A stretch of 64,000 nt of DNA from Thiosulfatihalobacter marinus (GTDB lineage: Bacteria; Pseudomonadota; Alphaproteobacteria; Rhodobacterales; Rhodobacteraceae), in assembly GCF_016019955.1 (NCBI RefSeq), contig NZ_JAECRZ010000004.1:124001-188000 (forward strand), read 5' to 3'. Made by a program: the position numbers and the translations under genes. Below, in pieces: positions 7,042 to 36,921 of this stretch. Positions within the stretch are counted from its first letter, which is position 1, and each line of letters starts with the position of its first letter. The notes under the pieces were generated by a model. The model was given only the letters and a program-made list of their open reading frames with translations. It was not told where the DNA came from and made no database searches.

Positions 7042-8064
7042 ATGGGTTATCGCGTCGTCGTCGCGGGTGCCACGGGCAATGTGGGCCGCGAAATGCTGAA
7101 CATCCTGGCCGAGCGCCAGTTCCCGGTGGACGAGCTTGCCGTTCTGGCCAGCCGCCGCTCGCTGGGCACCGAAATCTCGTTTGGCGACAAGACCCTGAAA
7201 ACCCAGGACATCGAGCAATTCGATTTCTCGGGCTGGGACATGGCGCTGTTTGCCATCGGTTCGGACGCCACCCGCAAATATGCCCCGATCGCGGCCAAAT
7301 CGGGCTGCGTGGTGATCGACAACTCGTCGCTCTACCGCTACGACCCGGATGTGCCGCTGATCGTGCCGGAATGCAACGCCGACGCGATCCACGGTTATTC
7401 GAAAAAGAACATCATCGCCAACCCCAACTGCTCGACCGCGCAGATGGTGGTGGCCCTCAAGCCGCTGCATGACCGCGCCACCATCAAGCGCGTCGTGGTT
7501 TCGACCTATCAGTCGGTCTCCGGGTCGGGCAAGGCCGCCATCGACGAACTGTGGGACCAGACCAAGGCCGCCTACAACCCCACCGACAATTATCAACGCA
7601 AGGTCTATACCAAGGACATCGCCTTCAATGTCATTCCCCATATCGACGTTTTCATGGAAGACGGCTCGACCAAGGAAGAATGGAAGATGGTCGCCGAAAC
7701 CAAGAAGATCGTCGACCCGTCGATCAAGGTCACGGCCACCTGCGTGCGCGTGCCTGTGTTCGTGGGCCATTCCGAGGCGATCAATATCGAGTTCGAGGAT
7801 TTCCTGGACGAGGACGAAGCCCGCGACATCCTGCGCGAGGCGCCCGGCATCATGGTGATCGACAAGCGCGAAGACGGCGGCTACGTCACCCCCAAGGAAT
7901 GCGTGGGCGATTTCGCCACCTTCATCAGCCGCATCCGCCAGGACAGCACCGTGGACAATGGTCTGAACCTGTGGTGCGTATCCGACAACCTGCGCAAGGG
8001 CGCGGCGTTGAACGCGGTGCAGATCGCCGAAACGCTGGGCCGCGAAGTGCTGAAAAAAGGCTAG
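7042..8064 (+). CDS. asd: Aspartate-semialdehyde dehydrogenase
   Basis: This NADPH-dependent enzyme of the lysine, threonine and methionine pathway converts aspartyl phosphate to the semialdehyde; 340 aa, normal family length. The nucleotide-binding GATGNVGREM is at residues 8-17 and the active-site cysteine sits in NPNCSTAQM near residue 130. A GGAGA ribosome-binding site lies 8 bases upstream of the ATG. The stop is the TAG of a CTAG sequence that also forms the left border of a palindromic element, so the element abuts the gene without changing its end. Confidence 0.96.
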   Translation: MGYRVVVAGATGNVGREMLNILAERQFPVDELAVLASRRSLGTEISFGDKTLKTQDIEQFDFSGWDMALFAIGSDATRKYAPIAAKSGCVVIDNSSLYRYDPDVPLIVPECNADAIHGYSKKNIIANPNCSTAQMVVALKPLHDRATIKRVVVSTYQSVSGSGKAAIDELWDQTKAAYNPTDNYQRKVYTKDIAFNVIPHIDVFMEDGSTKEEWKMVAETKKIVDPSIKVTATCVRVPVFVGHSEAINIEFEDFLDEDEARDILREAPGIMVIDKREDGGYVTPKECVGDFATFISRIRQDSTVDNGLNLWCVSDNLRKGAALNAVQIAETLGREVLKKG

Positions 8065-8328
8065 GGTCAGGACCCATTAATCCTGCACCACTGGCGCCAA
8101 ATCCACGAAATATCGGTGGTTTGGCGCGCGCCGGACATAGTGGCTCTATTTCCAAGCGTGCCAAGCCGCTGGGATGAAGTGGATTTGGCGTCCTGCGGAT
8201 TTGACGGATTTGCCGCCTGACGTCCTTTCAATGCCTTGAAATAGAACCACTATTCCTGCGGCATTGTACGTAGTCAGACAGCAAATCTGTCAAACCAGTG
8301 GCGCAGGATTAATGGATCCTGACCCTAG
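8061..8328. repeat. Palindromic element, copy 1 (268 bp, CTAG-bounded)
   Basis: This is a 268-bp element bounded on both sides by CTAG, with terminal inverted repeats GGTCAGGACCCATTAATC... of about 22 bp. Inside are two long imperfect hairpins in opposite orientation, with similar tips (ATAGTGGCTCTAT on the left, AATAGAACCACTATT on the right). The copy at 36654-36921 differs at only a few positions; the copy at 25818-25975 has a single hairpin. There is no transposase frame, so if mobile it would depend on an enzyme supplied elsewhere. The CTAG ends could be a 4-bp target duplication (as with IS5-type targets) or part of the repeat. Confidence 0.85.
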
Positions 8329-8352
8329 GCACCGAAACATGCCTGTTGCAAT

Positions 8353-8381
8353 AAAGGGCGCCCATTTGCGGCGCCCTTTCC
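8353..8381. terminator. Bidirectional stem-loop between asd/element and the 8384 gene
   Basis: A perfect 10-bp stem, AAAGGGCGCC with GGCGCCCTTT, has a 7-base loop and T-rich tails on both sides. It lies between convergent genes and could stop transcription from either. Confidence 0.7.
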
Positions 8382-8383
8382 TT

Positions 8384-8857
8384 TCAGACATCTCCGATCA
8401 GATCGGCGCTTCCGTGTTTTGACAAGGGCCCCGGCACCCGTTCGCCCGCCCGGACATGACACTGCCCGGGAAAAGGTTTGCCGAAACGCTGCATCAGGCT
8501 GCCATAGGCGAATCCCAGTTCGGATGCCTTGCAAAGCCGCTGCCCCTCGGGATGCGAGTGCAGCGCCAATCCGCCCCCCGCCTCGCGCAGCGCAAATCCC
8601 TTCCGCGCCAGCCGCCCGCTCAGTTCCCCCCAGCTGCGCGCCGCCGCCAGGTCAATGGCGAGGAGGCTCCGCAAGGAGGCGAGGAGCCGCTCATCCGCCC
8701 GATTGGGCGTTTTCGCCGCACGCGTCCGCCGCGCGATCTCGGCTTCCAGCGCCAGCCGCAACAATTGCCCGACAGTGATATCCGCCTCGCGGGCCAGATG
8801 CTGCGCCGCGTTCAGCATCGGAACCGGCATTCTGAAATGAACGTCCTGCAAATCCAT
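8384..8857 (-). CDS. Hypothetical protein with ribbon-helix-helix-like N-terminus
   Basis: This protein of 157 aa has no clear family. Residues 1-45 (MDLQDVHFRMPVPML...TVGQLLRLALEAEIAR) resemble a ribbon-helix-helix DNA-binding segment, one strand followed by two helices. The C-terminal half (WGELSGRLARKGFALREAGG) looks like the short domain that follows RHH-type segments in some relaxase-associated proteins; that resemblance is from memory and weak. The start at 8857 is chosen because the reading frame further upstream lacks homology-like sequence and is rich in Arg/Cys. It has no operon partner. Confidence 0.6.
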   Translation of the reverse strand: MDLQDVHFRMPVPMLNAAQHLAREADITVGQLLRLALEAEIARRTRAAKTPNRADERLLASLRSLLAIDLAAARSWGELSGRLARKGFALREAGGGLALHSHPEGQRLCKASELGFAYGSLMQRFGKPFPGQCHVRAGERVPGPLSKHGSADLIGDV

Positions 8858-9385
8858 GCAGCCACTCTGCGCCGCCAGGGTTAACACGCGGTTAGCACAT
8901 GACGACCCACCCCGCGCACAGCGCCCTGGCCCTGTCCCGCGGCGCTGCCACTGGCCCGCCGTCATGGCACCGCGCCGGCAATTGACGCGCCTGCGCGTCA
9001 CATTCGCGCCGAATCACTCCCCCGAATTGTCAGCCCCCCGCCACATTCGGGACAGAAACCGCACATATCACCAAGCCCAGCTCGCAAACCGCGCCCTTTC
9101 CGGGCGTCGCTTGCGCAGCGGGTCCCGAAGCGCATGTTTCGGGCAGTGGGGCAGTTTCCGCCCAGGGTCCGCGCCAACGCGCCGCGGCGAATGGGTGGTC
9201 CTGCGACAACATGTTTATGCCTGTCAGGCCCTCAGCCACGCGCTGCTGGGCCCGAAACACTGTGTTTCCGCAATCGAACCGGATTTCCGCCTTTTCGACA
9301 CATTTCGCGCCACTTCCGCCGCAATCCCGGAGCAAATTGAAATCAGTCGAAAGACACGGGCAATAACGGAAAACTGGAGGCTCAC
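8858..9385. other. Intergenic region without a recognised feature
   Basis: These 528 bases lie between the 8384 gene and the 45-aa ORF. I see no convincing coding frame, tRNA or long palindrome. It must hold the promoter of the small ORF, but I cannot point to clear -35 and -10 boxes. Confidence 0.5.
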
Positions 9386-9523
9386 ATGCCAAAGCGGATT
9401 TACAAGGAAACCATCATGGAAAACGCCAATATCGAGTTTCAATCGCTCGCCGAAAAGGCCCGGGAGCGCCGCCTGCGCGCTCTGATGGCCTCCAATCGCG
9501 AGATGTCGAACATCTTCCTCTGA
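9386..9523 (+). CDS. Small hypothetical protein, 45 aa
   Basis: This short frame begins MPKRIYKETIMEN and ends EMSNIFL. It has a strong GGAGG ribosome-binding site 6 bases before the ATG and a clean stem-loop terminator 30 bases after the stop, so it looks like a complete one-gene transcript. The protein is charged and probably helical (SLAEKARERRLRALMAS), with no membrane segment or signal peptide. An alternative start is Met11. I do not recognise a family. Confidence 0.6.
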   Translation: MPKRIYKETIMENANIEFQSLAEKARERRLRALMASNREMSNIFL

Positions 9524-9552
9524 AGCCCATCTCAGAGCACGGATCACAGGAA

Positions 9553-9583
9553 CAGCCCGCCCCTGGCGGGCTGCCTCGTTTTC
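9553..9583 (+). terminator. Rho-independent terminator after the 45-aa ORF
   Basis: A 9-bp perfect stem, CAGCCCGCC with GGCGGGCTG, has a 3-base loop and is followed by CCTCGTTTT. It also lies just beyond the stop of the convergent carbonic anhydrase gene. Confidence 0.75.
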
Positions 9584-9590
9584 AGAGGTC

Positions 9591-10241
9591 TCAGACCGCG
9601 ACAAACCCATCCGAGACCCGGTCATAGGCTTCCAGCCCGCCTTCCGCGATATCGTGCCACAACCCGTGCAGGGTCAGGTCGCCCCGCTCGACCCGCTCGC
9701 GCACGAACGGAAACGTCATCAGGTTTTCCAGCGACACCAGAACCGACCGCTTTTCCAGCGCCCGCGCCTGTTCCCTGTCATCCCGGATATCGGCCACCGC
9801 CTCATAGCCGGGCCGAAGCACATCCATCCAGCGCCCGACAAAGCTTTCCTTGGCATCCAGTTCCGGTGCATTGCCCTTGCACATGTCGATACAGCCCTGC
9901 ACCCCGCCGCATTGCGAGTGGCCCAGAACCACCACATGCGCCACCTTCAGCGCCGTCACCGCGTATTCCACCGCCGCCGAGGTGCCGTGCTGATTGCCGT
10001 CCGGCTTGTGGGGCGGCACCAGATTGGCAATGTTGCGGTGGATAAAGAACTCACCCTGATCCGCACCGAAAATCGACGTGACATGCACCCGGCTGTCACA
10101 ACAGGAAATGATCATTGCCCGCGGATGCTGCCCCTCGGCGCCCAGATGGCGGTACCAGCTTGCATTCTGCGCATAGGTGGTGGCTTTCCAGCCGTGGTAA
10201 CGCTGCACCAGATAGGATGGCAACGGTTTCGCGTGGTCCAT
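9591..10241 (-). CDS. Beta-class carbonic anhydrase
   Basis: This zinc enzyme interconverts CO2 and bicarbonate; 216 aa. CCDSR at residues 47-51 provides the zinc-ligand Cys and the Asp-Arg pair, and HSQCGGV provides His108 and Cys111, so all expected ligands are present. The ATG at 10241 is preferred over the upstream one at 10253 because GGGGGA lies about 5 bases before it. Bicarbonate supply would serve carboxylases such as the pyruvate carboxylase at 26675, although the two genes are not linked. Confidence 0.92.
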   Translation of the reverse strand: MDHAKPLPSYLVQRYHGWKATTYAQNASWYRHLGAEGQHPRAMIISCCDSRVHVTSIFGADQGEFFIHRNIANLVPPHKPDGNQHGTSAAVEYAVTALKVAHVVVLGHSQCGGVQGCIDMCKGNAPELDAKESFVGRWMDVLRPGYEAVADIRDDREQARALEKRSVLVSLENLMTFPFVRERVERGDLTLHGLWHDIAEGGLEAYDRVSDGFVAV

Positions 10242-10391
10242 GATGTCCCCCATTCGTTCAGGTTTGCAGGTCGGGATAGTCGGAATTTAGCGCAATTTCG
10301 ACAAGAAAGGGGGATCGGCGTCAACTTTTTACTCAGAACTTGGGCGCACTCTCTTCCGCGGTGTGGGAAGTGAACGTTACGGGGTGAGACA

Positions 10392-10769
10392 GTGACACAT
10401 GTCGCAATACTTCAACCGACCGAGGATGTCTCGGTCGATCAGGACGAACTTGCGCGGATATTCATCCGGATGGACAGCGCCGCCGATGAAATGGTCGCCC
10501 AATCCATCGAGGAACTGGCCCTGCGCCTGCCACATGCGCACCGCCTGTTCCGCGCCGCCGATCACGACGGGCTGGGCGACTGCGCGGGGGCGATTGCCAC
10601 CGTGGCCGCGCGCATAGGCATGACAAGGCTGGCCCGCGTGGCCGGCGATGTGGGCCGGTGTTGCGAAACGCACGACCCGGCCGCGCTCGCCGCCACGCAC
10701 TGCCGCATGATCCGGCTGGGCGAATGCTCGCTGCGGGAAATATGGGATTTGCAGGACCTGCCTGTCTGA
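10392..10769 (+). CDS. Hypothetical protein resembling an Hpt domain that lacks the phospho-His
   Basis: This mostly helical cytosolic protein of 125 aa starts at GTG behind GGGGTGA. Residues about 60-105 (GAIATVAARIGMTRLARVAGDV...) follow the spacing of histidine phosphotransfer domains, but the position where AHxLKG would carry the phosphorylated His reads AGAIAT. If the resemblance is real it would be a non-phosphorylatable Hpt-like module. It is divergent from the carbonic anhydrase gene and precedes pepA by 68 bases. Family membership is uncertain. Confidence 0.55.
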   Translation: MTHVAILQPTEDVSVDQDELARIFIRMDSAADEMVAQSIEELALRLPHAHRLFRAADHDGLGDCAGAIATVAARIGMTRLARVAGDVGRCCETHDPAALAATHCRMIRLGECSLREIWDLQDLPV

Positions 10770-10837
10770 CAGGGCTTGCGGGCGGCGGCGCACCGGCTAA
10801 CCTGTGATGCGGCGCAACCCCAACCAACGAGGCCCCC

Positions 10838-12226
10838 ATGTCGCAGACTTTCGCCCCGGCCGATGCCGATGCCCTGCCCCTCCATGTCGTTGATGCCGAC
10901 GGTCTGGACGGCTGGCTCTCTGCGCAACCGCCCGCCATCCAGACCTGGGTGGCCGCCAGCGGCTTCATGCCCACAATCGGCCGGACCCTGCTGATTCCCG
11001 ATTCCAGCGGCAAACCCGCCCTGGCACTGGCCGGTTACGGGACTGCAACGGCCCGCGCCCGAGTCCGCTTTGCCCTCGCCGCCGCGGCCGAATCCCTGCC
11101 TGCGGGCACTTACCGCCTGGCAACACCCCTGCCCGCGGGCGACCCGGAAACCGAATGCCTCGGCTGGCTGCTCGCGGCCTACGCCTTTGACCGATACAGC
11201 GACCAGTCCGGCGCCGGCGCCCGCCTCGTCTGCCCCACCGATGTAAACGCCGCCCGTGTCGAATCCATCGCCGAGGCCGAGGCGCTCACCCGCGACCTGA
11301 TCAACACGCCCGCCGCCGATATGGGCCCCGCCGAACTCGAGGCCGCCGCCCGGTTTCTGGCGGCGACGCATGACGCCCGCTTCTCCGTGACCATTGGCGA
11401 CGACCTGCTCGACAGGAATTTCCCCATGATCCACGCGGTCGGCCGCGCCGCCGCGCCCGACCGCGCCCCGCGCCTGATCGACATGCGCTGGGGCACAACC
11501 GGACCCAGGCTGACGCTTGTCGGCAAGGGCGTGTGTTTCGACACCGGCGGGCTGAATCTCAAGTCCGGCGGGTCCATGGGTCTGATGAAAAAGGACATGG
11601 GCGGCGCGGCCACCGTGCTGGGGCTGGCCGCGATGATCATGGCGCTGAACTTGCCGCTGCGGCTGCGCGTGCTGGTCCCGGCGGTGGAAAACGCGGTCTC
11701 GGGCGACAGCTTCCGCCCCGGCGATATCCTGACCTCACGCCAGGGATTTACCGTCGAGGTCAACAATACCGATGCCGAAGGCCGGCTGGTCCTGGCCGAC
11801 GCCCTGGCCCTGGCCTCCGAGGAAAATCCCGACCTGCTGATCTCCATGGCCACCCTCACCGGCGCCGCCCGCGTCGCCGTCGGCCCGGACCTGGCGCCCT
11901 ATTTCTGCGACGACAGCGCCTTTGCCACCGCCCTGGAACCGGCGGCGCAGCGCGTCGCCGATCCGGTCTGGCGCCTGCCCTTCTGGGAGCCGTATGAAAA
12001 GATGATAGAACCGGGCATCGCCGATCTGGACAACGCACCCTCGGGCGGTATGGCCGGCGCGATCACCGCGGCCCTGTTCCTGCGCCGCTTTGCACAAGGC
12101 CAGCGTTACGCCCATTTCGACATCTACGGCTGGAACCCCACCACCGCCCCGGCCCGGCCCAAGGGTGGCGTCGGCATGGGCGCGCGGGCGCTCTTGCAGG
12201 CGCTGCCAGACCTGCTGAACCTGTGA
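10838..12226 (+). CDS. pepA: Leucyl aminopeptidase family protein (M17)
   Basis: This cytosolic metallo-aminopeptidase of 462 aa has an N-terminal macro-like domain of about 160 residues and a C-terminal M17 catalytic domain. The metal-binding signature NTDAEGRL is near residue 310, and VGKGVCFDTGGLNLK near residue 230 contains another ligand Asp and the catalytic Lys. The stop TGA overlaps the ATG of the NlpC/P60 gene (TGATG), so the two are probably coupled in translation. Confidence 0.93.
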   Translation: MSQTFAPADADALPLHVVDADGLDGWLSAQPPAIQTWVAASGFMPTIGRTLLIPDSSGKPALALAGYGTATARARVRFALAAAAESLPAGTYRLATPLPAGDPETECLGWLLAAYAFDRYSDQSGAGARLVCPTDVNAARVESIAEAEALTRDLINTPAADMGPAELEAAARFLAATHDARFSVTIGDDLLDRNFPMIHAVGRAAAPDRAPRLIDMRWGTTGPRLTLVGKGVCFDTGGLNLKSGGSMGLMKKDMGGAATVLGLAAMIMALNLPLRLRVLVPAVENAVSGDSFRPGDILTSRQGFTVEVNNTDAEGRLVLADALALASEENPDLLISMATLTGAARVAVGPDLAPYFCDDSAFATALEPAAQRVADPVWRLPFWEPYEKMIEPGIADLDNAPSGGMAGAITAALFLRRFAQGQRYAHFDIYGWNPTTAPARPKGGVGMGARALLQALPDLLNL

Positions 12227-13101
12227 TGGACCACCGCCTCACACCGGCCAACTCCCGCGTCGCCCATCAATCGCTTGCCGGCCAGCGCGCCGGCGTGTCC
12301 TTTGTCACCCCCACCCGCCACCTCGTGGCTGTCCCCGTCGCCCCCCTGCTGGCAGAACCGCGCGCGCGCGCGCCACGGAACCGCGAACTGGCCTTCGGAG
12401 AACAGTTCGACCTGCTGGAAATTCACCAGGGCTGGGCCTTTGGCGCCGCCCTGCGGGATGGCTATGTCGGTTATGTCGCCGCCGATCAGCTGGCCGATCA
12501 TTTCCAGCCTCCCACTCACCGGGTCATCGCCCCCAGCTATCGAAACGCCAAACCGCAGCTCAAGGCACAGGGCGCGCCGGTGCCCCTGCCCATCGGCGCG
12601 CTGGTCAGTGTCCGCGCCACCCGTCACGATCATTGTGACTGGGCCGAAATCAACTGCCCCACCACCACACCGGACAAGGGCGGCGCGGCCTATGTCCCGA
12701 TGCCCCACCTTGCCCCACTCACCCCGTCCCCAACCGATCCCGTGGCCGAAGCCGAACGTTACCTCGCCACCCCCTATCTCTGGGCCGGGAATTCAGGTTT
12801 CGGCATCGATTGTTCCGGCCTCGTGCAGGCCGCCCTGCTGGCCTGCGGCATCCCCTGTCCGGGCGACAGCGACCTGCAAGAAGCCGCCTTCCCGGACGCC
12901 ACCGGCCCCTATCAGCGCGGCGACCTCCTGTTCTGGAAGGGGCATGTCGCGATGGTCACTGACACCGACACCATGATCCATGCCAACGCCCATCACATGG
13001 CCGTGGCGCGGGAACCCACCGCCACCGCCATTGCCCGCATCGCGGCACAGGGCGGGGGTCCGGTGACATCCCGCAAACGCCCGCTTCAGGAGGCCCCATG
13101 A
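12226..13101 (+). CDS. NlpC/P60 family peptidase with SH3-like domain
   Basis: This probable cell-wall peptidase of 291 aa has an SH3-type region at about residues 25-165. The NlpC/P60 catalytic domain follows, with the Cys in GIDCSGLVQAALLACG (around 200), the His in GHVAMVTD (around 240) and a third polar residue in IHANAH. No signal peptide is visible, so export is unclear. It overlaps pepA by one base and speB by four, giving a tightly packed pepA-nlpC-speB operon. Confidence 0.88.
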   Translation: MDHRLTPANSRVAHQSLAGQRAGVSFVTPTRHLVAVPVAPLLAEPRARAPRNRELAFGEQFDLLEIHQGWAFGAALRDGYVGYVAADQLADHFQPPTHRVIAPSYRNAKPQLKAQGAPVPLPIGALVSVRATRHDHCDWAEINCPTTTPDKGGAAYVPMPHLAPLTPSPTDPVAEAERYLATPYLWAGNSGFGIDCSGLVQAALLACGIPCPGDSDLQEAAFPDATGPYQRGDLLFWKGHVAMVTDTDTMIHANAHHMAVAREPTATAIARIAAQGGGPVTSRKRPLQEAP

Positions 13102-14130: not shown

Positions 14131-14140
14131 CGCTCATACA

Positions 14141-20762: not shown

Positions 20763-20770
20763 CAAAATTC

Positions 20771-20784
20771 GGGCCACATGGCCC
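20771..20784 (+). other. Palindromic separator between sRNA units
   Basis: GGGCCACATGGCCC forms a small hairpin between sRNA units 1 and 2. A near-identical GGGCCGCATGGCCC recurs at 20880, 20989, 21098 and 21207. It may mark processing sites of the precursor; that is inference. Confidence 0.5.
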
Positions 20785-20792
20785 ATCGGGAT

Positions 20793-20868
20793 CAAGGCAA
20801 CCCTCTCCTCCTCCCTGGGGTGTCTTGAGACTAGCGCGGCGGTTCCGCTCCTCCCTTGGGACCGCCGC
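20793..20868 (+). ncRNA. CcsR/cuckoo-like sRNA, unit 2
   Basis: Hairpin one (20793-20827) pairs CAAGGCA.CCC with GGGGTGTCTTG around a CTCCTCCTCCCT loop. Hairpin two (20836-20868) pairs GCGGCGGT with ACCGCCGC around CGCTCCTCCCTTGG. This is the first of four units lying in perfect 109-bp repeats. Confidence 0.82.
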
Positions 20869-20901
20869 ACCAGAACACCGGGCCGCATGGCCCACCGGGA
20901 T

Positions 20902-20977
20902 CAAGGCAACCCTCTCCTCCTCCCTGGGGTGTCTTGAGACTAGCGCGGCGGTTCCGCTCCTCCCTTGGGACCGCCGC
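20902..20977 (+). ncRNA. CcsR/cuckoo-like sRNA, unit 3
   Basis: Identical to unit 2: two hairpins with CUCCUCC-containing loops, preceded by the GGGCCGCATGGCCC separator at 20880-20893. Confidence 0.82.
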
Positions 20978-21010
20978 ACCAGAACACCGGGCCGCATGGC
21001 CCACCGGGAT

Positions 21011-21086
21011 CAAGGCAACCCTCTCCTCCTCCCTGGGGTGTCTTGAGACTAGCGCGGCGGTTCCGCTCCTCCCTTGGGACCGCCGC
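21011..21086 (+). ncRNA. CcsR/cuckoo-like sRNA, unit 4
   Basis: Identical to units 2, 3 and 5, with the separator at 20989-21002. Confidence 0.82.
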
Positions 21087-21119
21087 ACCAGAACACCGGG
21101 CCGCATGGCCCACCGGGAT

Positions 21120-21195
21120 CAAGGCAACCCTCTCCTCCTCCCTGGGGTGTCTTGAGACTAGCGCGGCGGTTCCGCTCCTCCCTTGGGACCGCCGC
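21120..21195 (+). ncRNA. CcsR/cuckoo-like sRNA, unit 5
   Basis: Identical to units 2-4, with separators at 21098-21111 and 21207-21220. Confidence 0.82.
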
Positions 21196-21228
21196 ACCAG
21201 AACACCGGGCCGCATGGCCCACCGGGAT

Positions 21229-21312
21229 CAAGGCAACCCTCTCCTCCTCCCTGGGGTGTCTTGACAAACGAGCGGCGGCACCCTCCTCCCGGGTGCCGCC
21301 GTATCTTTTTTC
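21229..21312 (+). ncRNA. CcsR/cuckoo-like sRNA, unit 6, ending in the array terminator
   Basis: The first hairpin (21229-21263) is identical to that of units 2-5. The second is replaced by an 11-bp perfect stem, CGGCGGCACCC with GGGTGCCGCCG, whose loop is TCCTCCC. A T-run follows, so the last sRNA hairpin is also the transcription terminator. Confidence 0.8.
21272..21312 (+). terminator. Rho-independent terminator of the DUF1127-CcsR transcript
   Basis: A perfect 11-bp stem with a 7-base TCCTCCC loop is followed by TATCTTTTTT. It is the only strong terminator after 20470, so the gene and all six sRNAs probably form one transcript. Confidence 0.88.
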
Positions 21313-24660: not shown

Positions 24661-25821
24661 ATGGATCCACATGCCAGATATCCCGCCCTGTCGGACCTGC
24701 GCGCCAGGGCGCAGCGCCGGATGCCCCGCTTTGTCTGGGAGTTTCTGGACAGCGCCACCGGCGACGAACGCACCAAGGCCCGCAACCGGGCGGCGCTGGA
24801 CGCGATCCTGTTTCACCCCTCGGTCCTGCATGGCGACATTGCCCCGGACCTTGGCACACCTTTCCTGGGCCAGGATTTTGCCTTGCCCATCGGCATCGCC
24901 CCCGTGGGCATGTCCGGTCTGGTCTGGCCCGATGCCGAACGCCGGCTCGCCCGTGCCGCGCGCGATATCGGCATTCCCTATTGCCTGTCCACCGTCGCCA
25001 GCCGTACCCCCGAGGATGTCGCGCCGGATCTTGGTCCGCATGGCTGGTTTCAGCTATACCCCCCGCGCGATCCCGATATCCGCAAGGACATGCTGCGCCG
25101 CGCCCGCAATTCGGGCTTTCGCACGCTGGTCCTGACCGTGGATGTCCCGGTCGCCAGCCGCCGGGAACGCCAGCTGCGCTCGGGCCTCACCACACCGCCC
25201 CGCCTCACACCGCGCCTGCTGGCCCAGATCGCGCGGCGCCCGGCCTGGGCCCTGGGCATGGCGCGCCACGGGCTGCCGCGCATGCGCCTGATCGACGATT
25301 ATGCCGGCCCGATGACGGGGCTGAACTCCACCGCCCATGCCGGCTATATGCTGCGCAGTTCGCCGGATTGGGAGTATCTGCACTGGTTGCGCGATCACTG
25401 GGACGGGCCGTTCATCGTCAAGGGCGTGCTGAACCCGCGCGATGCCGCGCCGCTGGAACAGGCCGGGGTGGATGCGCTCTGGATCTCCAACCACGCCGGG
25501 CGACAGTTCGACGCCGCCCCCGCCACCATCGAGGCGCTGCCCGCCATCCGCGCGGCCACCACCCTGCCGCTGATCGTGGACAGCGGGTTCGAGACCGGGC
25601 TCGATATCCTGCGCGCCGTGGCGCTCGGGGCCACTCTGGTGATGATGGGGCGCGGCTTTCACTATGCGCTGGCCGCGCTTGGGGCGCCGGGGCCGGGCCA
25701 CCTTGCCGAAATTCTCACGCAGGATCTGCACGCCAATATGGGCCAGCTGGGGCTGGACACCCCCTCCCGGGCCGCATCGCGCCTGTTGCGCCAGGACCAA
25801 CGGGCGAAAGAGCCAAACTAG
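24661..25821 (+). CDS. FMN-dependent alpha-hydroxy-acid dehydrogenase (L-lactate dehydrogenase-like)
   Basis: This TIM-barrel flavoprotein of 386 aa belongs to the lactate dehydrogenase (LldD)/glycolate oxidase family. Visible features are the N-terminal ARAQRRMPRFVWEFLDS, FMN-site segments GIAPVGMSGLVWPDAE and TVDVPVASRRER, the catalytic SNHAGRQFD (His near residue 282) and VMMGRGFHYALAA for phosphate binding. The start is chosen at MDPHARYPALSDL; earlier in-frame codons have no family sequence. The TAG stop is the first TAG of palindromic element copy 2. L-lactate is the likely, not certain, substrate. Confidence 0.88.
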   Translation: MDPHARYPALSDLRARAQRRMPRFVWEFLDSATGDERTKARNRAALDAILFHPSVLHGDIAPDLGTPFLGQDFALPIGIAPVGMSGLVWPDAERRLARAARDIGIPYCLSTVASRTPEDVAPDLGPHGWFQLYPPRDPDIRKDMLRRARNSGFRTLVLTVDVPVASRRERQLRSGLTTPPRLTPRLLAQIARRPAWALGMARHGLPRMRLIDDYAGPMTGLNSTAHAGYMLRSSPDWEYLHWLRDHWDGPFIVKGVLNPRDAAPLEQAGVDALWISNHAGRQFDAAPATIEALPAIRAATTLPLIVDSGFETGLDILRAVALGATLVMMGRGFHYALAALGAPGPGHLAEILTQDLHANMGQLGLDTPSRAASRLLRQDQRAKEPN

Positions 25822-25975
25822 GGTCAGGACCCATTAGTCCTGCGCCACTGGTTTGACAGATTTGCTGTCTGACTACGTACAATGCCGCAGGAATAGTGGT
25901 TCTATTTCAAGGCATTGAAAGGACGTCAGGCGGCAAATCCGTCAAATCCGCAGGATTAATGGGTCCTGACCCTAG
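25818..25975. repeat. Palindromic element, copy 2 (158 bp, single-hairpin form)
   Basis: It has the same CTAG borders and terminal inverted repeats as copies 1 and 3, but is inverted relative to them and contains only one hairpin module. It matches the reverse complement of copy 1 except for about 110 missing bases, at a junction where both ends of the missing part carry GCAGGA. The first CTAG gives the stop of the upstream gene, and the second, on the minus strand, gives the TAG stop of the rhodanese gene. Confidence 0.85.
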
Positions 25976-26430
25976 TCGGCGCGCAGGTCGACGGGCATGG
26001 CGTCCTGCGCCGCGCGCGCGGTCACGATCGGCAGGCCGGACGGTATCCACCCCTTGCCATTCGGCCCCCCGGCCATGCCCTCGGACACGTCCCAGACATT
26101 GGTGATGCCATTCCTGGCCAGCACCTCCACCAGATACCCCGAGCGGTTGCCCGTGCGGCAAATCACGGCCACCCGGCGATCCGGGTTGCGCTCCAGCACC
26201 CCGGTCAGACGCGCGCCGAACCGGCGGTCGCGCATGTCCATCGGCCAGGCGCCGCGCGCCACGCCGGTGTCCTGCCACTCGCGGGGCGTGCGGATATCGA
26301 TCAGGATCAGGTCGCCGCCCTCCAGCCCGGCCAGCGCCTCTTGCGCCGTCAGAACCATCCCTTCGGCCTGTCCCGCCGTCGCCAACCCGACACCAGCCGC
26401 CAATCCGCCAACAAACACCCGTCGTTGCAT
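25972..26430 (-). CDS. Rhodanese-like domain protein, probably Tat-exported
   Basis: This protein of 152 aa has a twin-arginine type signal (MQRRVFVGGLAAGVGLATAG, cleavage probably after GQA) and one rhodanese domain with the active-site loop CRTGNRS (Cys near residue 88) and the DIRTPREW motif. It would act in the periplasm; the sulfur substrate is unknown. Its stop codon lies in the right CTAG border of palindromic element copy 2. The long upstream frame is rejected because the signal sequence marks the true start. Confidence 0.8.
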   Translation of the reverse strand: MQRRVFVGGLAAGVGLATAGQAEGMVLTAQEALAGLEGGDLILIDIRTPREWQDTGVARGAWPMDMRDRRFGARLTGVLERNPDRRVAVICRTGNRSGYLVEVLARNGITNVWDVSEGMAGGPNGKGWIPSGLPIVTARAAQDAMPVDLRAD

Positions 26431-26674
26431 CGTTTCACATTCCGCTTTTTCTATATACATGTCGTGCCACAGCCCTGCGCCCGACACAACTGACAAAGCC
26501 GCCAGCACGTCGAACTCCGTGCCGGCAAGACCGGAAACGGAACGAAATCTTACGAATCCTAACAGAAATGCGCCAGAATCCGTACGACTCGGTATTGCTC
26601 TGCGCCGCAGCATGGTCTTATCTGCGCGCAGCGAACACAGCCGGACAGACACCGAAAAGGGAGGAGCCTGCCCA

Positions 26675-30118: not shown

Positions 30119-30146
30119 GCCAGGGGCCCGCTCCGGCGGGGCGTGT

Positions 30147-30983: not shown

Positions 30984-30989
30984 GCGGCG

Positions 30990-31856
30990 CTAACTCCAGA
31001 TCCCGTAGCGGTCCTGAAAATACCGCGCGGCCTCGTTGTTCAGCTGACGGCGCTTCTTGCCCCCGAATTCGGACCGGAACAGCGCCTCTTCATCCGAGTG
31101 GGCGGGCTTTTCAACGGGCGCAAGATACGGCTCGCGCAATCCGCCGATGATCCACACCCCGTGCCCCTTGCGCGCCATCTGCCCCGACAGCCAGACATCA
31201 TCCACCGGCCAGGCGAAATCGGGGATATCAAACACCTCGTCGGGGAAAAACTCCGGACGCACCAGAACCCCCATCCAGCCCTCGGCCCCGTCGGCATAGC
31301 CCGCGCGCAGCACCCGCCGCCGATCCGGCTCGACATAATCGCGCCCGGTCAGACGGCACGACACCCGACGCAGCAGGGCGCGCAGGTGAAACCCGACATT
31401 GGTGATCTTCCACAGAAACAGCCGCCTTGGCCGCTTGTCGAACCGCCGTCTGCCGCCGCCCGGCGGCGCGAAATCCCACATCCCGCTGACCGCGATCGCG
31501 TCGCCGGGGCGGCGCGCGCGCGCCTTCAGCATCCGCTCGGCCAGCCAGGGGCGATACGCCTGATCGTCGTCGCAATACAGAATGTCGATGTCCTGCCCGG
31601 CAAAGTCGCGCAACGCGGGCAACAGCTTGGTCGCCGGCCCCCAATCTTCCCCAACCCAACGGATTTCAACACCTTCCGGCACCTCGGGCGGGGTACCGTC
31701 CCAGTCGGGAAAGCGGCGATAGCGCCGGTTCAGATACAGGATCACCCGCTCTGGCGGAACGCTCTGCGCCAGCAGGCTGCGCAGGGTCGAGTCAAGCTGG
31801 CCAAACCGGGGCGGCACCGATGTCAGGGTAATGATATATGACCGTGCCACGCCCAT
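30990..31856 (-). CDS. Glycosyltransferase-like protein, paralogue B
   Basis: This is the upstream member of the pair, 288 aa, with the same layout: YIITLTSVPPRFGQLDSTL at the N-terminus, RRYRRFPDWDG near 45, YCDDDQAYRPW near 92, PVDDVWLSGQMARKGHGVW near 215, and a shared C-terminal AxxYxQxRYGIW. Conservation of the acidic cluster and the VDDVWLSG block in both copies supports these as functional residues. It is the first gene of the two-gene transcript. Confidence 0.7.
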   Translation of the reverse strand: MGVARSYIITLTSVPPRFGQLDSTLRSLLAQSVPPERVILYLNRRYRRFPDWDGTPPEVPEGVEIRWVGEDWGPATKLLPALRDFAGQDIDILYCDDDQAYRPWLAERMLKARARRPGDAIAVSGMWDFAPPGGGRRRFDKRPRRLFLWKITNVGFHLRALLRRVSCRLTGRDYVEPDRRRVLRAGYADGAEGWMGVLVRPEFFPDEVFDIPDFAWPVDDVWLSGQMARKGHGVWIIGGLREPYLAPVEKPAHSDEEALFRSEFGGKKRRQLNNEAARYFQDRYGIWS

Positions 31857-31937
31857 CCAAACCGCGATCGTCCCAGGAATGCCCTCTCCCTATCACGCCG
31901 CGTCAGACGGTCAAGCCTGTGCGGGCTTACCGACAGG

Positions 31938-32072
31938 TCACGGCGCTGCGCACTGTGCCACCGGTGCGTCGCAGGTCGCGGGGTGATCCTGCGCATCGGC
32001 CGAAACCACCATGCCAAGGCTGATCGCCACGACCAACGCCACAAGGCGCATATTCTGTGTCATCGTCTTCAT
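31938..32072 (-). CDS. Small secreted peptide, 44 aa
   Basis: The frame encodes MKTMTQNMRLVALVVAISLG, further small residues, then a likely signal-peptidase site after SADA. That leaves a mature peptide of about 17 residues, QDHPATCDAPVAQCAAP, with two cysteines. GAGGG lies before the first ATG and at a better distance (9 bases) from the second ATG at 32063, so either start is possible. The frame is too short for routine gene calling. No family is recognised. Confidence 0.5.
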   Translation of the reverse strand: MKTMTQNMRLVALVVAISLGMVVSADAQDHPATCDAPVAQCAAP

Positions 32073-32281
32073 CCCTCTGTCCCGCCGCGACCTCGCGCGC
32101 CGCGCATGGTGCCCGGATTTCGCGCGTTCCGGCGGGTTTCATGTTGTCGTCTTTCTCATGAAATCTCTTACGCAACCCATCGCGTATTCCGTCGTGAAGA
32201 GGACAATTTTTTTCCTCGGGTGATCATTTTACCTCTTGCGGCGCGGGGCGACTCTTTATATCTCACGCCTCACCCAAGGAT

Positions 32282-32356
32282 GCGGGCGTAGCTCAGGGGT
32301 AGAGCATAACCTTGCCAAGGTTAGGGTCGGGCGTTCGAATCGCCTCGCCCGCTCCA
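32282..32356 (+). tRNA. tRNA-Gly (GCC), copy 1
   Basis: This is a 75-base cloverleaf with a GCGGGCG/CGCCCGC acceptor stem, GCTCAGGGGTAGAGC D-arm, CTTGCCAAG anticodon loop (anticodon GCC, glycine), GTTCGAATC T-loop, and an encoded TCCA end. Confidence 0.96.
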
Positions 32357-32381
32357 ATATCCTCCGGATGGAGGGACAGTG

Positions 32382-32414
32382 AAAAAGGCGCCGGGTTGAA
32401 CCCCGGCGCCTTTT
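32382..32414 (+). terminator. Terminator after tRNA-Gly copy 1
   Basis: AAAAGGCGCCGGG pairs with CCCGGCGCCTTTT around a short loop, giving a strong stem with a T tail. Confidence 0.85.
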
Positions 32415-32510
32415 CATGTTTCGGACCCGTCCGCGCGTGCACAGCACCACCGCATTTTTCCTCTTGAAGTCCCCCCGCGCCGGGGCTATCTCACCCCTCA
32501 TCCAAAGGGG

Positions 32511-32585
32511 GCGGGCGTAGCTCAGGGGTAGAGCATAACCTTGCCAAGGTTAGGGTCGGGCGTTCGAATCGCCTCGCCCGCTCCA
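32511..32585 (+). tRNA. tRNA-Gly (GCC), copy 2
   Basis: The sequence is identical to copy 1, 229 bases downstream. The upstream flank also resembles that of copy 1 (CTCACCCCTCATCC against CTCACGCCTCACCC), so the promoter region seems to have been duplicated with the gene. Confidence 0.96.
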
Positions 32586-32600
32586 ATGGATCAAACCTCA

Positions 32601-32633
32601 GGGCGCACGGGAACCTTCCCTTGCGCCTTTTTG
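32601..32633 (+). terminator. Terminator after tRNA-Gly copy 2
   Basis: GGGCGCACGGGAA pairs imperfectly with TTCCCTTGCGCC and is followed by TTTTTG. Confidence 0.7.
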
Positions 32634-32707
32634 CATTCCAGCCGCATGTGTCACGTCACGGCGCAAGCCGTTCGCAGACGGCTGCCAGGCGGCATCGAAT
32701 TCGCGCG

Positions 32708-34042
32708 TTACCCCGCCAGCTTCGCCGCCAGACTGGTCTGCCGCTCGATCACCCGCGCCAGATCGATCGTGATCACCTGTCCGTCGCGCACCACCTGACG
32801 CCCCTCGACAAACAGATCGCGCACCCGTGTCGGCCCCGCCAGCAACAGCGCCGCCTTGTCCCAGCTTCCGGCACTCTCCACACCCGACACGTCCCACAGG
32901 GCGATATCGGCGCGCTTGCCCACGGCGATCTGCCCGCAATCCGCGCGTCCCAGCACCGCCGCCCCGCCCCGCGTGGCGATCTCCAGCGCCTCGCGCGCGC
33001 TCATCGCGTCCGCGCCCCTGGCCACCCGCTGCAACAGCATCGCCAGGCGCGCCTCGGACACCAGGTTGCCCGCATCGTTGCTGGCCGAGCCATCCACACC
33101 CAGCCCCACTGGCACGCCCGCATCGCGCATCGCCCGCACCGGCGCGATGCCGCTGCCAAGGCGACAGTTCGAACATGGGCAATGCGCCACCCCGGTCCCG
33201 CTGCGCGCGAACAGGCCGATCTCCTGCCCGTCCAGCTTCACGCAATGCGCGTGCCACACATCCGGCCCCGTCCAGCCCAGATCCTCGGCATATTGTCCGG
33301 GACGACAGCCGAATTTCTCCAGCGAATAGGCGATGTCCTCGTCATTTTCGGCCAGATGCGTGTGTAGCATCACCCCCTTGTCGCGCGCCAGCAACGCCGC
33401 GTCCCGCATCAGATCGCGGCTCACCGAGAAGGGCGAACAGGGCGCAACGCCCACCCGCACCATCGCGCCCTCGCGCGCATCGTGATGCCGGTCGATGACA
33501 CGCAGCGCATCCTCCAGGATATCCGCCTCCCGCTCGACCAGCATATCCGGCGGCAGCCCGCCGTCGCTTTGCCCGATGCTCATCGCACCGCGCGTTGGAT
33601 GAAACCGCATCCCGATCTCGCGGGCCGCGTCGATCGTGTCATCCAGCCGCGCGCCGTTGGGATAAAGATACAGGTGATCCGAGGTCAGCGTACAGCCCGA
33701 CAGCGCCAGTTCCGCCAGCCCCACCTGCGCCGATACGAACATCTCTTCCGGCCCGAACCGCGCCCAGATCGGATACAGCGTCTGCAACCAGCCAAACAAC
33801 AGCGCATCCTGCCCGCCCGGCACCGCCCGCGTCAGGGTCTGGTACAAATGGTGATGGGTGTTGACCAGACCGGGCGTCACCACGCAGCCCGCCGCGCGCA
33901 CCACCTCGCCGCCGCTTGTCCGATCCGCGCCGATCTCGGCGATCACGCCATCGCGGATACGGATATCGCACCCCGCCAGTTCACGGCGGTCATCGTCCAT
34001 GGTCAGGACGGTTTCACAGGATTTCAGCAGAATTTCGGACAT
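32708..34042 (-). CDS. 8-oxoguanine deaminase / amidohydrolase (AtzB/TrzA type)
   Basis: This metal-dependent amidohydrolase of 444 aa is of the family that converts 8-oxoguanine to urate and includes related aminohydrolases. Metal-binding NTHHHLYQTL is near residue 65, LHTHLAENDED near 220, HAHCVKL near 255 and GLGVDGSASND near 305. The start MSEILLKSCETVL is chosen since AAAGG lies 6 bases upstream. Directly before the start is a 13-bp inverted repeat that could control expression. Substrate specificity among the purine and triazine deaminases of this family cannot be settled from sequence alone. Confidence 0.82.
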   Translation of the reverse strand: MSEILLKSCETVLTMDDDRRELAGCDIRIRDGVIAEIGADRTSGGEVVRAAGCVVTPGLVNTHHHLYQTLTRAVPGGQDALLFGWLQTLYPIWARFGPEEMFVSAQVGLAELALSGCTLTSDHLYLYPNGARLDDTIDAAREIGMRFHPTRGAMSIGQSDGGLPPDMLVEREADILEDALRVIDRHHDAREGAMVRVGVAPCSPFSVSRDLMRDAALLARDKGVMLHTHLAENDEDIAYSLEKFGCRPGQYAEDLGWTGPDVWHAHCVKLDGQEIGLFARSGTGVAHCPCSNCRLGSGIAPVRAMRDAGVPVGLGVDGSASNDAGNLVSEARLAMLLQRVARGADAMSAREALEIATRGGAAVLGRADCGQIAVGKRADIALWDVSGVESAGSWDKAALLLAGPTRVRDLFVEGRQVVRDGQVITIDLARVIERQTSLAAKLAG

Positions 34043-34049
34043 GGTCAGC

Positions 34050-34094
34050 CTTTCACACTTCACAAAGGCCCGATTCGGTTTTGAAGTGTGAAAG
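34050..34094 (-). promoter_or_regulatory. 13-bp inverted repeat in the leader of the 8-oxoguanine deaminase gene
   Basis: CTTTCACACTTCA (34050-34062) and TGAAGTGTGAAAG (34082-34094) are perfect inverted repeats separated by 19 bases, 8 bases upstream of the ATG. On the mRNA the stem would cover part of the ribosome-binding site. As DNA, each arm could be an operator half-site. Confidence 0.65.
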
Positions 34095-34162
34095 CCACCG
34101 GACAGAAAGCGGGCAAAGGACTCCGGCAACGCCTGTCAATTTAATCAGCGCGCGCGCCGGTT

Positions 34163-34963
34163 TCAATCAGGGAATTGCGAAAGCAGCTTCAGCGCTTCGG
34201 CGTGCAATTCGGGCGTCGCGGCGGCCAGGACCTGCCCACCCATATGCACCTTGCCACCCTGCCAGTCGGTCACGATCCCGCCCGCGGCCTCGATCACCGC
34301 AATCGGCGCCTGAATGTCATAGGCGTTCAGCCCGGCCTCGATCACCAGATCCACCTGCCCCGCCGCCACCAGAGCATAGGCATAGCAATCCATGCCATAG
34401 CGGGTCAGCCGCACCCGTTCCGCCACGGCTTCGAACGCGCGCCGTTCACCGGGCGTGCCGATTTCGGGAAAGGTGGTGAACAGGATCGCGTCTTCCAGCC
34501 GGTGCGTGCGCCGGGTTTCCAGCCTCCGCCGGCCCTGCGGGCCGGTCAGGTCCGCCACCCCAAGCCCGCCGGCAAATCGCTCGCCGATATAGGGCTGGTC
34601 GATCACGCCATAAAGCGGGCCGGTTGCATCCGACAGCGCAATCAGCACGCCCCAGGTGGGCGTGCCGCTGATGAAACCGCGCGTGCCGTCGATCGGATCC
34701 AGCACCCAGGTCAGGCCCGAGCTGCCCTCGCGCGCGCCGTATTCCTCGCCCAGGATGCCGTCCTGCGGGAATTCGCGCTCCAGCACATCCCGCATCGCCC
34801 GTTCCGCGGCGCGGTCCGCCACCGTGACCGGATCGAACCCGTCCGTCAGCTTGTTCTCCGCCGCCAGCCCCTGCGCACGAAAATGCGGCAGAATGGCAGA
34901 ACGGGCGGCGTCTGCCATCACATCCGCCACCCGTTTGATTTTTTCAATATCGCTACGGTTCAC
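34163..34963 (-). CDS. hisN: Inositol-monophosphatase family protein, probably histidinol-phosphatase
   Basis: This Mg-dependent sugar-phosphatase fold protein has 266 aa. Motifs: GEEYG near residue 72, WVLDPIDGTRGFISG at 86-100 and YDIQAPIAVIEAAGG near 215. The RGFISGTPTWG segment is typical of the HisN-type histidinol-phosphate phosphatase. It is an enzyme of histidine synthesis if that assignment holds; otherwise it is a general inositol-phosphatase-like enzyme. It lies 120 bases upstream of the deaminase on the same strand. Confidence 0.82.
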   Translation of the reverse strand: MNRSDIEKIKRVADVMADAARSAILPHFRAQGLAAENKLTDGFDPVTVADRAAERAMRDVLEREFPQDGILGEEYGAREGSSGLTWVLDPIDGTRGFISGTPTWGVLIALSDATGPLYGVIDQPYIGERFAGGLGVADLTGPQGRRRLETRRTHRLEDAILFTTFPEIGTPGERRAFEAVAERVRLTRYGMDCYAYALVAAGQVDLVIEAGLNAYDIQAPIAVIEAAGGIVTDWQGGKVHMGGQVLAAATPELHAEALKLLSQFPD

Positions 34964-35020
34964 TTGAATGCCCCTCGCCCCTGTCGGCCACCTCTGCGCT
35001 AGCCCAAGGGGGAAGAAAAC

Positions 35021-35389
35021 TCAAGCTACGTCGCTTAAAACCCGTGCCAGTTCAAACAGGCGCCGCCGCTGGTTCTCCGGGATCGCGTAATACGACCGGA
35101 CCAGATCCAGCGCTTCCTTGTCACCCATCAGGTCCGCGGGCACTTTCCTGGCAAGATCGCCTTCTTCAGCATCCAGGCCTTCGAAAAAGAAGCTTACGGG
35201 CACATCAAGCGCATCGGCAATATCCCAAAGCCGGGACGCGCTGACGCGGTTGGCCCCGGTTTCGTATTTCTGGATCTGCTGAAACTTGATTCCCACTTGC
35301 TCGGCCAGCTGCTGCTGCGTCATGCCGGTCAACCACCGGCGTTGCCGAATTCTCTTGCCTACATGCACGTCTACCGGGTGCGTCATCAT
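35021..35389 (-). CDS. XRE-family helix-turn-helix regulator
   Basis: This DNA-binding protein of 122 aa has the HTH at about residues 12-66 (GKRIRQRRWLTGMTQQQLAE, FQQIQKYETGANRVSASRLW), followed by a short C-terminal segment of unknown role. AAGGAG lies about 5 bases before the ATG; two ATG codons are adjacent. It is divergent from the quinone oxidoreductase, separated by 305 bases. No target is evident. Confidence 0.88.
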   Translation of the reverse strand: MMTHPVDVHVGKRIRQRRWLTGMTQQQLAEQVGIKFQQIQKYETGANRVSASRLWDIADALDVPVSFFFEGLDAEEGDLARKVPADLMGDKEALDLVRSYYAIPENQRRRLFELARVLSDVA

Positions 35390-35694
35390 ACGACTCCTTG
35401 TTTTACCTTTTCTTCGGCCTTCGCCGAAACATGCGCCAGCTCCCAACACCCGGCGCATGCCCTGTTCTTGATGTCGCCGCGCATCCCTACAGCGATGCCC
35501 CACTTTAACAGCTTTGACCTTTCGTTCAAGGAATTTGATACAAGTCAGCCGTTAACCAAATAGCACACCATACAATCATGGCTTGTCCCGGAATTGTGAC
35601 GCTGTGTCGCGAAACAGCCAAAGCGACTCTGCGGTTTTGACACCTGTTCCACCACTTGTGTACTCAAGGCGCATCACATCAGGAGTATGTCCCC
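35390..35694. other. Intergenic region between XRE regulator and quinone oxidoreductase
   Basis: These 305 bases hold two divergent promoters that I cannot place with confidence. Visible items are a small hairpin, TTCGGCCTTCGCCGAA, in the XRE leader and an AT-richer stretch around 35500-35580. Confidence 0.4.
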
Positions 35695-36657
35695 ATGCGC
35701 GCCTACCAGGTCACCACCCACGATTCGCCGCCCGCCATCCGCGATATTCCCACGCCCGAACCGGGCCGCGGCGAAATCCGCATCCGCATCCGCGCCTGCG
35801 CGCTGAATTTCGCGGATCTTCTGATGATCAAGGGCACCTATCAGGATATTCCGCCCCTGCCTTTCGTTCTGGGCATGGAGGTGGCGGGCGAGGTCGAGGC
35901 GCTGGGCCCCGATACACCCGGCCCCGCCATCGGCACCCGGGTCGTGGTGTTTGGCGGTCAGGGCGGGCTGGCCGAATATGGCTGCTATCCGGCCGCGCGC
36001 GCCGTGCCCTTGCCTGACGCCATGAGCTTTGAACACGCCGCCGCCTTTCCTGTCGCCTATGGCACAAGCCATGTGGCGCTGGAGTACCGGGCGCGCCTGC
36101 AACCGGGGGAAAACCTGCTGGTGCTGGGGGCGGCCGGCGGGATTGGTCTCACGGCGGTCGAGATCGGCAAGCTGATGGGCGCCAATGTCATCGCCTGCGC
36201 CCGCGGCGCCGACAAGCTGGAGGTGGCGCGCAAGATGGGGGCGGATCACCTGATCGACGCATCAACCGACGATATCCGCGCCGCCGTCAAGGCACTGGGC
36301 GGGGCCGATGTGGTCTATGATCCGGTGGGCGGCGATCAGTTCAAGGCGGCCTTTCGCGCCTGCCGCCCCGAAGCGCGCCTTCTGCCCATCGGGTTTGCCT
36401 CGGGCGACATTCCGCAAATCCCGGCCAATCACCTTCTGGTCAAGAACCTCACCGTGATGGGGCTTTACTGGGGCGGCTACATGGCCTTCAAACCCGCTGT
36501 CGTGACCGACAGCATGGCAACCCTGTTCCGCTGGTATGCCGAGGGCAGGATCAAGCCACATATCAGCCACGTGCTGCCGCTCGATCAGGCGGACGCGGCC
36601 TATGAGCTGCTGCGCAGCCGCAAATCCACCGGCAAGGTTGTGGTGACGGTCGACTAG
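35695..36657 (+). CDS. NADPH:quinone oxidoreductase family protein (zinc-independent MDR)
   Basis: This medium-chain dehydrogenase/reductase of 320 aa has the substrate domain first (CALNFADLLMIKGTYQD; GMEVAGEVEALG) and the nucleotide-binding motif GAAGGIGLTAVEIGKLMGA near residue 145. No zinc ligands are present, as usual for quinone oxidoreductases. AGGAG lies 9 bases upstream of the ATG. The TAG stop is the left CTAG border of palindromic element copy 3. Confidence 0.88.
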   Translation: MRAYQVTTHDSPPAIRDIPTPEPGRGEIRIRIRACALNFADLLMIKGTYQDIPPLPFVLGMEVAGEVEALGPDTPGPAIGTRVVVFGGQGGLAEYGCYPAARAVPLPDAMSFEHAAAFPVAYGTSHVALEYRARLQPGENLLVLGAAGGIGLTAVEIGKLMGANVIACARGADKLEVARKMGADHLIDASTDDIRAAVKALGGADVVYDPVGGDQFKAAFRACRPEARLLPIGFASGDIPQIPANHLLVKNLTVMGLYWGGYMAFKPAVVTDSMATLFRWYAEGRIKPHISHVLPLDQADAAYELLRSRKSTGKVVVTVD

Positions 36658-36921
36658 GGTCAGGACCCATTAATCCTGCACCACTGGCGCCAAATCCACG
36701 AAATATCAGGGGTTTGGCGCGCGCCGGACATAGTGGCTCTATTTCCAAGCGTGCCAAGCCGCTGGGATGAAGTGGATTTGGCGTCCTGCGGATTTGACGG
36801 ATTTGCCGCCTGACGTCCTTTCAATGCCTTGAAATAGAACCACTATTCCTGCGGCATTGTACGTAGTCAGACAGCAAATCTGTTAAACCAGTGGCGCAGG
36901 ATTAATGGGTCCTGACCCTAG
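36654..36921. repeat. Palindromic element, copy 3 (268 bp)
   Basis: This is the same length and orientation as copy 1 and nearly identical to it, with a handful of substitutions (for example ATATCAGGGGTTT for ATATCGGTGGTTT). It is bounded by CTAG on both sides; the first TAG is the stop codon of the quinone oxidoreductase. The right border is 16 bases beyond the LysR stop. Confidence 0.85.

Follow-up and report, generated by a model that had tools for sequence, protein, structure and literature searches.

How can a transposon settle again and again at the very ends of bacterial genes and leave their proteins essentially unchanged? Our study takes up this question in a 64,000-nucleotide stretch of Thiosulfatihalobacter marinus DNA (assembly GCF_016019955.1, contig NZ_JAECRZ010000004.1, positions 124,001 to 188,000; hereafter the window), which carries three copies of a small, gene-less transposon inside the stop codons of its genes. 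The element has the features of a miniature inverted-repeat transposable element (MITE): it is short, contains no coding gene, has terminal inverted repeats, is flanked by a TA duplication and is present in several copies. We consider it probable that it is moved in trans into YTAR sites, with duplication of TA, by transposases of the IS5 family (IS427-like), and that its interior is a conserved DNA hairpin structure.

Ends, target site and the rebuilt stop codon

The initial annotation placed three palindromic copies at 8061-8328, 25818-25975 and 36654-36921, each with CTAG on both sides, and all three are present with these flanks. Its terminal inverted repeats are real, and its estimate of about 22 bp for their length is too short: they span 34 nt at 94% identity in copy 1, 34 nt at 97% in copy 3 and 28 nt at 96% in copy 2. 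The flanks set the boundaries of the element itself, which reads GGGTCAGGACCC...GGGTCCTGACCC. In the T. marinus genome, a scan that tolerated mismatches found 25 forward and 27 reverse end matches, giving 25 two-ended copies, of which 20 are 262 bp long, two are 55 bp, and the others are 260, 152 and 26 bp. This count is without half a copy at the end of contig C13, an unpaired right end (C11:26774) and a lone match with two mismatches (C60:146320); an extra match to the relaxed pattern in L036 was likewise unused. Pairwise identity among the 20 copies of exactly 262 bp is 0.939-0.996. Minimal derivatives of 26-58 bp, with little beyond the two end repeats, were also seen at gene ends or convergent junctions (L011, L042, L044, L061, L087, L251, L252 and L253), and in genome G232 two MITE copies seem, by eye, to be interrupted by other insertions with transposase-like frames (L238 1240-2557, L239 1285-2719).

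The 4-bp CTAG duplication first proposed has to be given up. The left quartet YTAG and the right quartet CTAR are identical in only 14 of the 25 copies and TA stands on both sides in 24, so that TA, not CTAG, is the duplicated unit. Every left flank reads YTA (20 CTA, 5 TTA), and the right flanks read TAG in 17 copies, TAA in seven and AAG in one. The element is thus flanked by YTA and TAR, and the stop codon is made of the target TA and the element's first G, on either strand. As had been noted, a predicted plus-strand gene has its stop at the left TAG of each window copy; these genes are asd, a flavin mononucleotide (FMN)-dependent dehydrogenase gene and a PIG3-like quinone oxidoreductase gene. 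CTAG is also as scarce as had been expected: the window has 20 occurrences, where dinucleotide shuffles predict 49.4.

Empty sites are found in relatives. The end codon of asd is identical in 24 of 24 same-genus genomes; 17 of them use TAA as the stop and seven use TGA, each preceded by C. The gene at copy 3 keeps the same end codon in 23 of 24 such genomes and is one residue longer in the remaining one (L304), with TGA, TAA or TAG as its stop; for copies 1 and 3 no element lies within 70 bases after the stop in the relatives. At the copy 2 site, TTAG or CTAG forms the overlapping stops of both convergent genes in three of eight aligned relatives (G020, G023 and G008). The left gene at copy 2 is about 10 residues longer than in relatives, so that its end is not identical to theirs.

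Partner insertion sequences and the placement of copies

Insertion sequences (ISs) measuring about 0.83-0.85 kb, whose ends are nearly those of the MITE and which have a two-frame IS5 transposase, occur in same-family and same-genus genomes, and it is because of these IS427-like elements in relatives that we class the element as a MITE. Their left end shares its first 18 bases with the MITE, and their right end differs at 3 of 18. The two frames of one such element (L082) match Pfam DUF4096 and DDE_Tnp_1 and the NCBIfam IS5 family; the second frame scores 151 bits for transpos_IS5_3 of NCBIfam (cut-off 110), and the first, at 101, lies below the cut-off. The original idea of a non-autonomous element with a harmless target is borne out, as is its association with stop codons. 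From 32 rows we kept 17 IS-length copies, having dropped 15 that were off length, lacked TA flanks or were chance end pairs; transposase frames are listed only for L076 and L082 among the 17. All 17 accepted copies have TA flanks, two of them with GTA or TAC in place of YTA or TAR. The ends of the MITE can change as well. In genome G261 a MITE body about 80% identical to that of T. marinus has both ends changed together, reading GGGYGTAGACCCATAA, and the same genome contains a 948-bp IS with GGGCGTAGACCTATAA-like ends and IS5-family frames; both MITE ends resemble those of the local IS, and so follow it.

Genome-wide, 21 of the 25 two-ended copies lie at a predicted gene stop, and a majority away from stops was not found. 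With the window copies left out, 294 YTAR sites occur in 464 kb of the T. marinus genome. The baseline for comparison, in which the window copies were excised, consists of 203 non-disrupting YTAR sites, the three window sites among them. Stops are occupied by 21 of 24 non-disrupting MITE copies as against 58 of 203 baseline sites (p = 2.6e-8), and convergent junctions by 19 of 24 as against 29 of 203 (p = 1.1e-10). Within convergent junctions, stops are not above baseline (18/19 for the MITE, 23/29 for the baseline; p = 0.22), and the stop pattern therefore comes mainly from scarce YTAR sites together with a convergent bias: part of the stop association is site availability, and the remainder is convergent-junction bias.

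Such a bias might lie in target recognition itself, if this, owing for instance to supercoiling or transcription-replication conflict, preferred sites at the stops of convergent genes, and not in selection after insertion. Convergent stops are over-used even among stop sites (18/21 for the MITE against 23/58 for the baseline; p = 3e-4), and three of the seven IS-length copies with callable neighbours lie in convergent junctions, as this explanation would have it. We nevertheless regard it as unlikely, since only one of 17 IS-length copies lies on a stop, a weak counterargument given that 10 of the 17 have no callable gene pair. Stop-codon targeting by the transposase alone is not favoured on the same count and with the same weakness.

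The interior hairpins

Of 394 family genomes, 25 yielded this element, that of T. marinus included (two candidates were scored per genome, so that copy numbers are lower bounds). Among 23 placed copies from other genomes, 21 are 260-264 bp long, and identity to copy 3 is 65-87%. A family alignment (A2) of 24 sequences, comprising three T. marinus copies and 21 of 28 loci from other genomes, gave 95 pairs with RNAalifold, 68 of them with double changes. In this alignment 95.0% of cells are paired as against 34-43% for slid versions, and changes on both sides number 317 as against 82.8 when shuffled. The core hairpin, which forms arm 2 of the element, has the layout CTGCGTT-stem-CTTG-short stem-loop-CTGCG-stem-CCTTG, and the unpaired bases CTTG, CTGCG and CCTTG are widely conserved. 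In a wide set of 32 core matches 90.4% of cells are paired, with a score of 0.780 against 0.179 for shuffled versions. Arm 1 of the family element gave a weak match to the core model in three of 10 loci and none in the window. In its interior the element does not resemble IS debris. A loop-loop pairing between TGGTT of arm 1 and AACCA of arm 2 was considered and rejected, as by eye it is inconsistent across the A2 rows.

The core hairpin extends well beyond the family. A 23-mer from arm 2 has at least 101 exact stretches in a species-level genome collection, and its carriers among the matches listed include Rhodobacteraceae, Novosphingobium, Erythrobacteraceae, Microbulbifer and another gammaproteobacterium, with differing terminal repeats. 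In genomes with this exact core, 28 of 56 elements terminate a reading frame of 120 codons or more as against 159 of 711 other YTAR sites (p = 1.6e-5); the 56 are the exact-core loci with placed ends among 80 (23 had none and one was a duplicate), and about 11 placements are off the true ends, L355 from among the 28 positives being one such case. Plasmid records of Pseudoalteromonas and Catenovulum contain a related core, and PLSDB gene tables give convergent neighbours for two plasmid copies, the minus-strand gene of the first stopping four bases from the match, not inside it. The core covariance model has 24 rows, among them copy 3 and the Pseudoalteromonas, Catenovulum and clostridial records, and its E-values are rough; at E <= 1e-4 it has matches in 83 of 398 sampled Pseudomonadota genomes, of which 77 lie outside the family (ten candidates were scored per genome, and copy numbers are again lower bounds). 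The viral contigs, phages and E. coli genomes searched gave no match. Separately, a core-like hairpin was seen in a plasmid record of Subdoligranulum variabile (Clostridia; L427 1482-1578, E 2e-3), a single record that is itself included in the model and is only suggestive.

An inverted end pair is found in 19 of 25 examined core loci, with several unrelated end sequences; among the 25, L442 is doubtful because it holds the hairpin stem only, L440, L445 and L457 because they start inside the true end, and L438 and L443 because of a wrong offset. A second core lies about 110 bp away on the opposite strand in six of the 25, and together with the weak arm 1 matches this makes the inverted hairpin pair a recurrent, not a universal, architecture. 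Across Pseudomonadota, then, it looks as if the hairpin is the conserved unit and the ends are replaceable handles.

Several points weigh against a MITE moved in trans by IS427-like transposases with DNA hairpins in its interior. The gene calls come from a simple gene finder of our own, for which 231 long frames served as the training set and which covered the 464 kb (the window and 20 stretches), and the stop association is weaker in other genera, at 11 of 22 and 20 of 32 copies (eight shared between the two sets). A search of the T. marinus genome with one 137-residue fragment as the probe gave no match to an IS427-like transposase, so that the donor is not seen here. The 23-mer with up to two mismatches occurs in only four of the 398 sampled Pseudomonadota genomes, and alignment A4 was fitted to the covariance model. 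The family alignment holds 118 G.T against 50 A.C, mostly in few fixed pairs, and two pairs are G.U in 20 of the 24 sequences on one strand; RNA is expected to favour G.U pairs. Correction of palindromes is a known process, and template switching can give inverted repeats compensatory changes without selection.

The G.U pairs speak for hairpins that act as RNA, whether as a mobile 3' untranslated region, a transcription terminator or an mRNA stabiliser serving both converging genes, and that are kept at stops because they are useful. The convergent position of 19 of 24 copies, the very stable fold (z = -15 against shuffles for copy 1), the conserved internal-loop bases and a mean fold energy slightly better on the G.U-bearing strand (-148.4 against -143.7) would all fit, as would five end-only derivatives of 36-58 bp, every one at a convergent junction and three on a stop. 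We judge a role as RNA to be improbable, however. The 499 cells of the 32 core matches comprise 446 Watson-Crick, 5 G.T, 16 A.C and 32 other combinations, and the family alignment without its wobble-rich pairs retains 54 G.T and 49 A.C. Consensus folds have almost the same energy on either strand (-245.7 and -245.4), orientation relative to the stop gene follows no rule (14 sense, 9 antisense), and Rfam gave no element match at the gathering threshold in the window, nor any for copy 3 with E allowed up to 5. By eye, the insertion has left the terminator-like hairpin that follows asd in place, and behind the window copies there is no run of T (no terminator scan was made). Since G.T is not favoured in the wide core set, we lean towards a structure at the level of DNA, not RNA.

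Palindrome correction leads to a different alternative, that of an ordinary MITE whose complementarity would come only from quasipalindrome correction and whose position at stops and convergent junctions would come only from the purging of harmful insertions. The baseline-like share of stops within convergent junctions agrees with this; the widely conserved unpaired motifs, which template-switch correction does not explain, the narrow length range of the copies from other genomes and the recurrence of the hairpin with unrelated ends do not, and we find this account doubtful.

The positions of the element, its parts and its host genes are collected in Table 1. The PIG3 match of the copy 3 gene is below the NCBIfam cut-off. 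Beside copy 1, a short predicted gene on the minus strand (8384-8887) has a weak, sub-threshold match to TraI/MobP relaxase. Elsewhere in the window, a tandem array at 20770-21270 has a 109-bp unit, contains CTAG in four units (20831, 20940, 21049 and 21158) and is rich in CCTCCTCCCT, and two tRNA matches of equal score and length (32282-32353 and 32511-32582) lie 229 bases apart.

Table 1. Element copies, target duplications, hairpins and host genes, in window coordinates.
Feature	Position	Strand	Remarks
MITE copy 1	8064..8325	+ (core hairpin strand)	262 bp
Left TA target copy, copy 1	8062..8063		with element G (8062-8064), TAG stop of asd
Right TA target copy, copy 1	8326..8327		
Core hairpin (arm 2), copy 1	8202..8298	+	covariance model R1 (copy 3 among the model's rows)
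asd, aspartate-semialdehyde dehydrogenase	7042..8064	+	stop from junction
MITE copy 2	25821..25972	-	152-bp derivative without arm 1; TCCTGC repeats at gap
Left TA, copy 2	25819..25820		with element G, TAG stop of FMN dehydrogenase gene
Right TA, copy 2	25973..25974		minus-strand 25974-25972 is TAG, stop of convergent rhodanese-domain gene
Core hairpin, copy 2	25848..25944	-	covariance model R1
FMN-dependent dehydrogenase gene	24661..25821	+	ends in copy 2 junction
Rhodanese-domain gene	25972..26508	-	ends in copy 2 junction; same end position in 6 of 8 aligned relatives
MITE copy 3	36657..36918	+	262 bp
Left TA, copy 3	36655..36656		with element G, TAG stop of quinone oxidoreductase gene
Right TA target copy, copy 3	36919..36920		
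Arm 1 hairpin, copy 3	36688..36783		by eye, diverged inverted counterpart of core; R1 gives no match in window
Core hairpin (arm 2), copy 3	36795..36891	+	covariance model R1, built with copy 3
Quinone oxidoreductase-like gene (zinc-type, PIG3-like)	35695..36657	+	ends in copy 3 junction

Proposed mechanism and relation to known systems

We propose the following model for the MITE. An IS427-like transposase would act in trans and insert the element at a palindromic YTAR, duplicating the central TA. With G as its first base and C as its last, the element would turn a TAA or TAG stop within YTAR into TAG, and likewise the stop of a convergent gene sharing the site, so that both proteins would keep their ends. 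YTAR is scarce inside these GC-rich genes, and many of the available sites would thus be stops; copies elsewhere are probably also lost to selection, which would leave mainly those between convergent genes. The conserved hairpin, which some members at least carry in a second, inverted copy, would persist while the ends change. More tentatively, with chances that we put somewhat short of even, the element may belong to a class of mini-transposons spread over the phylum, in which two inverted DNA hairpins, conserved and selected as one unit, are recognised in their folded form by a host or replication factor, the ends are exchanged to borrow a resident transposase, and insertion at YTAR stops is invisible to the proteome.

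MITEs are usually treated as decayed remnants of ISs and are defined by their ends; here it is the ends that vary, whereas the non-coding hairpin persists over the phylum. This persistence suggests a functional interior and offers a defined sequence for testing. The element also illustrates a simple rule: with a YTAR target and a G at its end, a transposon is able to sit in one or two stop codons without altering the proteins.

We recognised no description of the element in the open-licence literature, whether by literal sequence or among the MITEs of Shewanella, Pseudoalteromonas and Vibrio, a search in which absence is unproven. Among palindromic miniature elements, ERIC/IRU, Correia/NEMIS and RUP have TA duplications and often lie near gene ends; they belong to different hosts, and their sequences were compared with the element by the Rfam scan only. 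Repetitive extragenic palindromic (REP) doublets, or REPINs, associated with RAYT, consist of two inverted DNA hairpins with conserved unpaired bases that form one mobile unit. The present element resembles them in its paired inverted hairpins and conserved unpaired bases, and unlike them it carries its hairpins between terminal repeats with a TA duplication. MITEPsy1 of Pseudomonas syringae, 100 bp long, uses CTAG or YTAA targets with a 4-nt duplication, is related to ISPsy2 and is possibly derived from IS5 (PMC3189936); in the part of that text compared it is alike in being short, possibly IS5-derived and directed to a CTAG/YTAA-type target, and differs in that no hairpin pair or stop-codon pattern is described there. 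MITEAba12 is 113 bp long, of very constant length, with 9-bp duplications and ends matching the resident ISAba12 (PMC6382973), and so shares constant length and IS-matching ends with our MITE; the portion of the text compared describes no stop-codon target pattern. Finally, the ISs of the IS427 group in Paracoccus are described, in the part of the source used here, as 832-865 bp long with two overlapping transposase frames and mostly 2-bp repeats (PMC3281130). The partner IS in relatives, with TA flanks, a two-frame transposase and a length of about 0.83-0.85 kb, shares size (about 0.83-0.87 kb in the group), frames and 2-bp repeats with this group of the IS5 family, whereas the MITE itself is gene-less and, judged by eye and not by alignment, resembles the IS in its ends and not in its interior.

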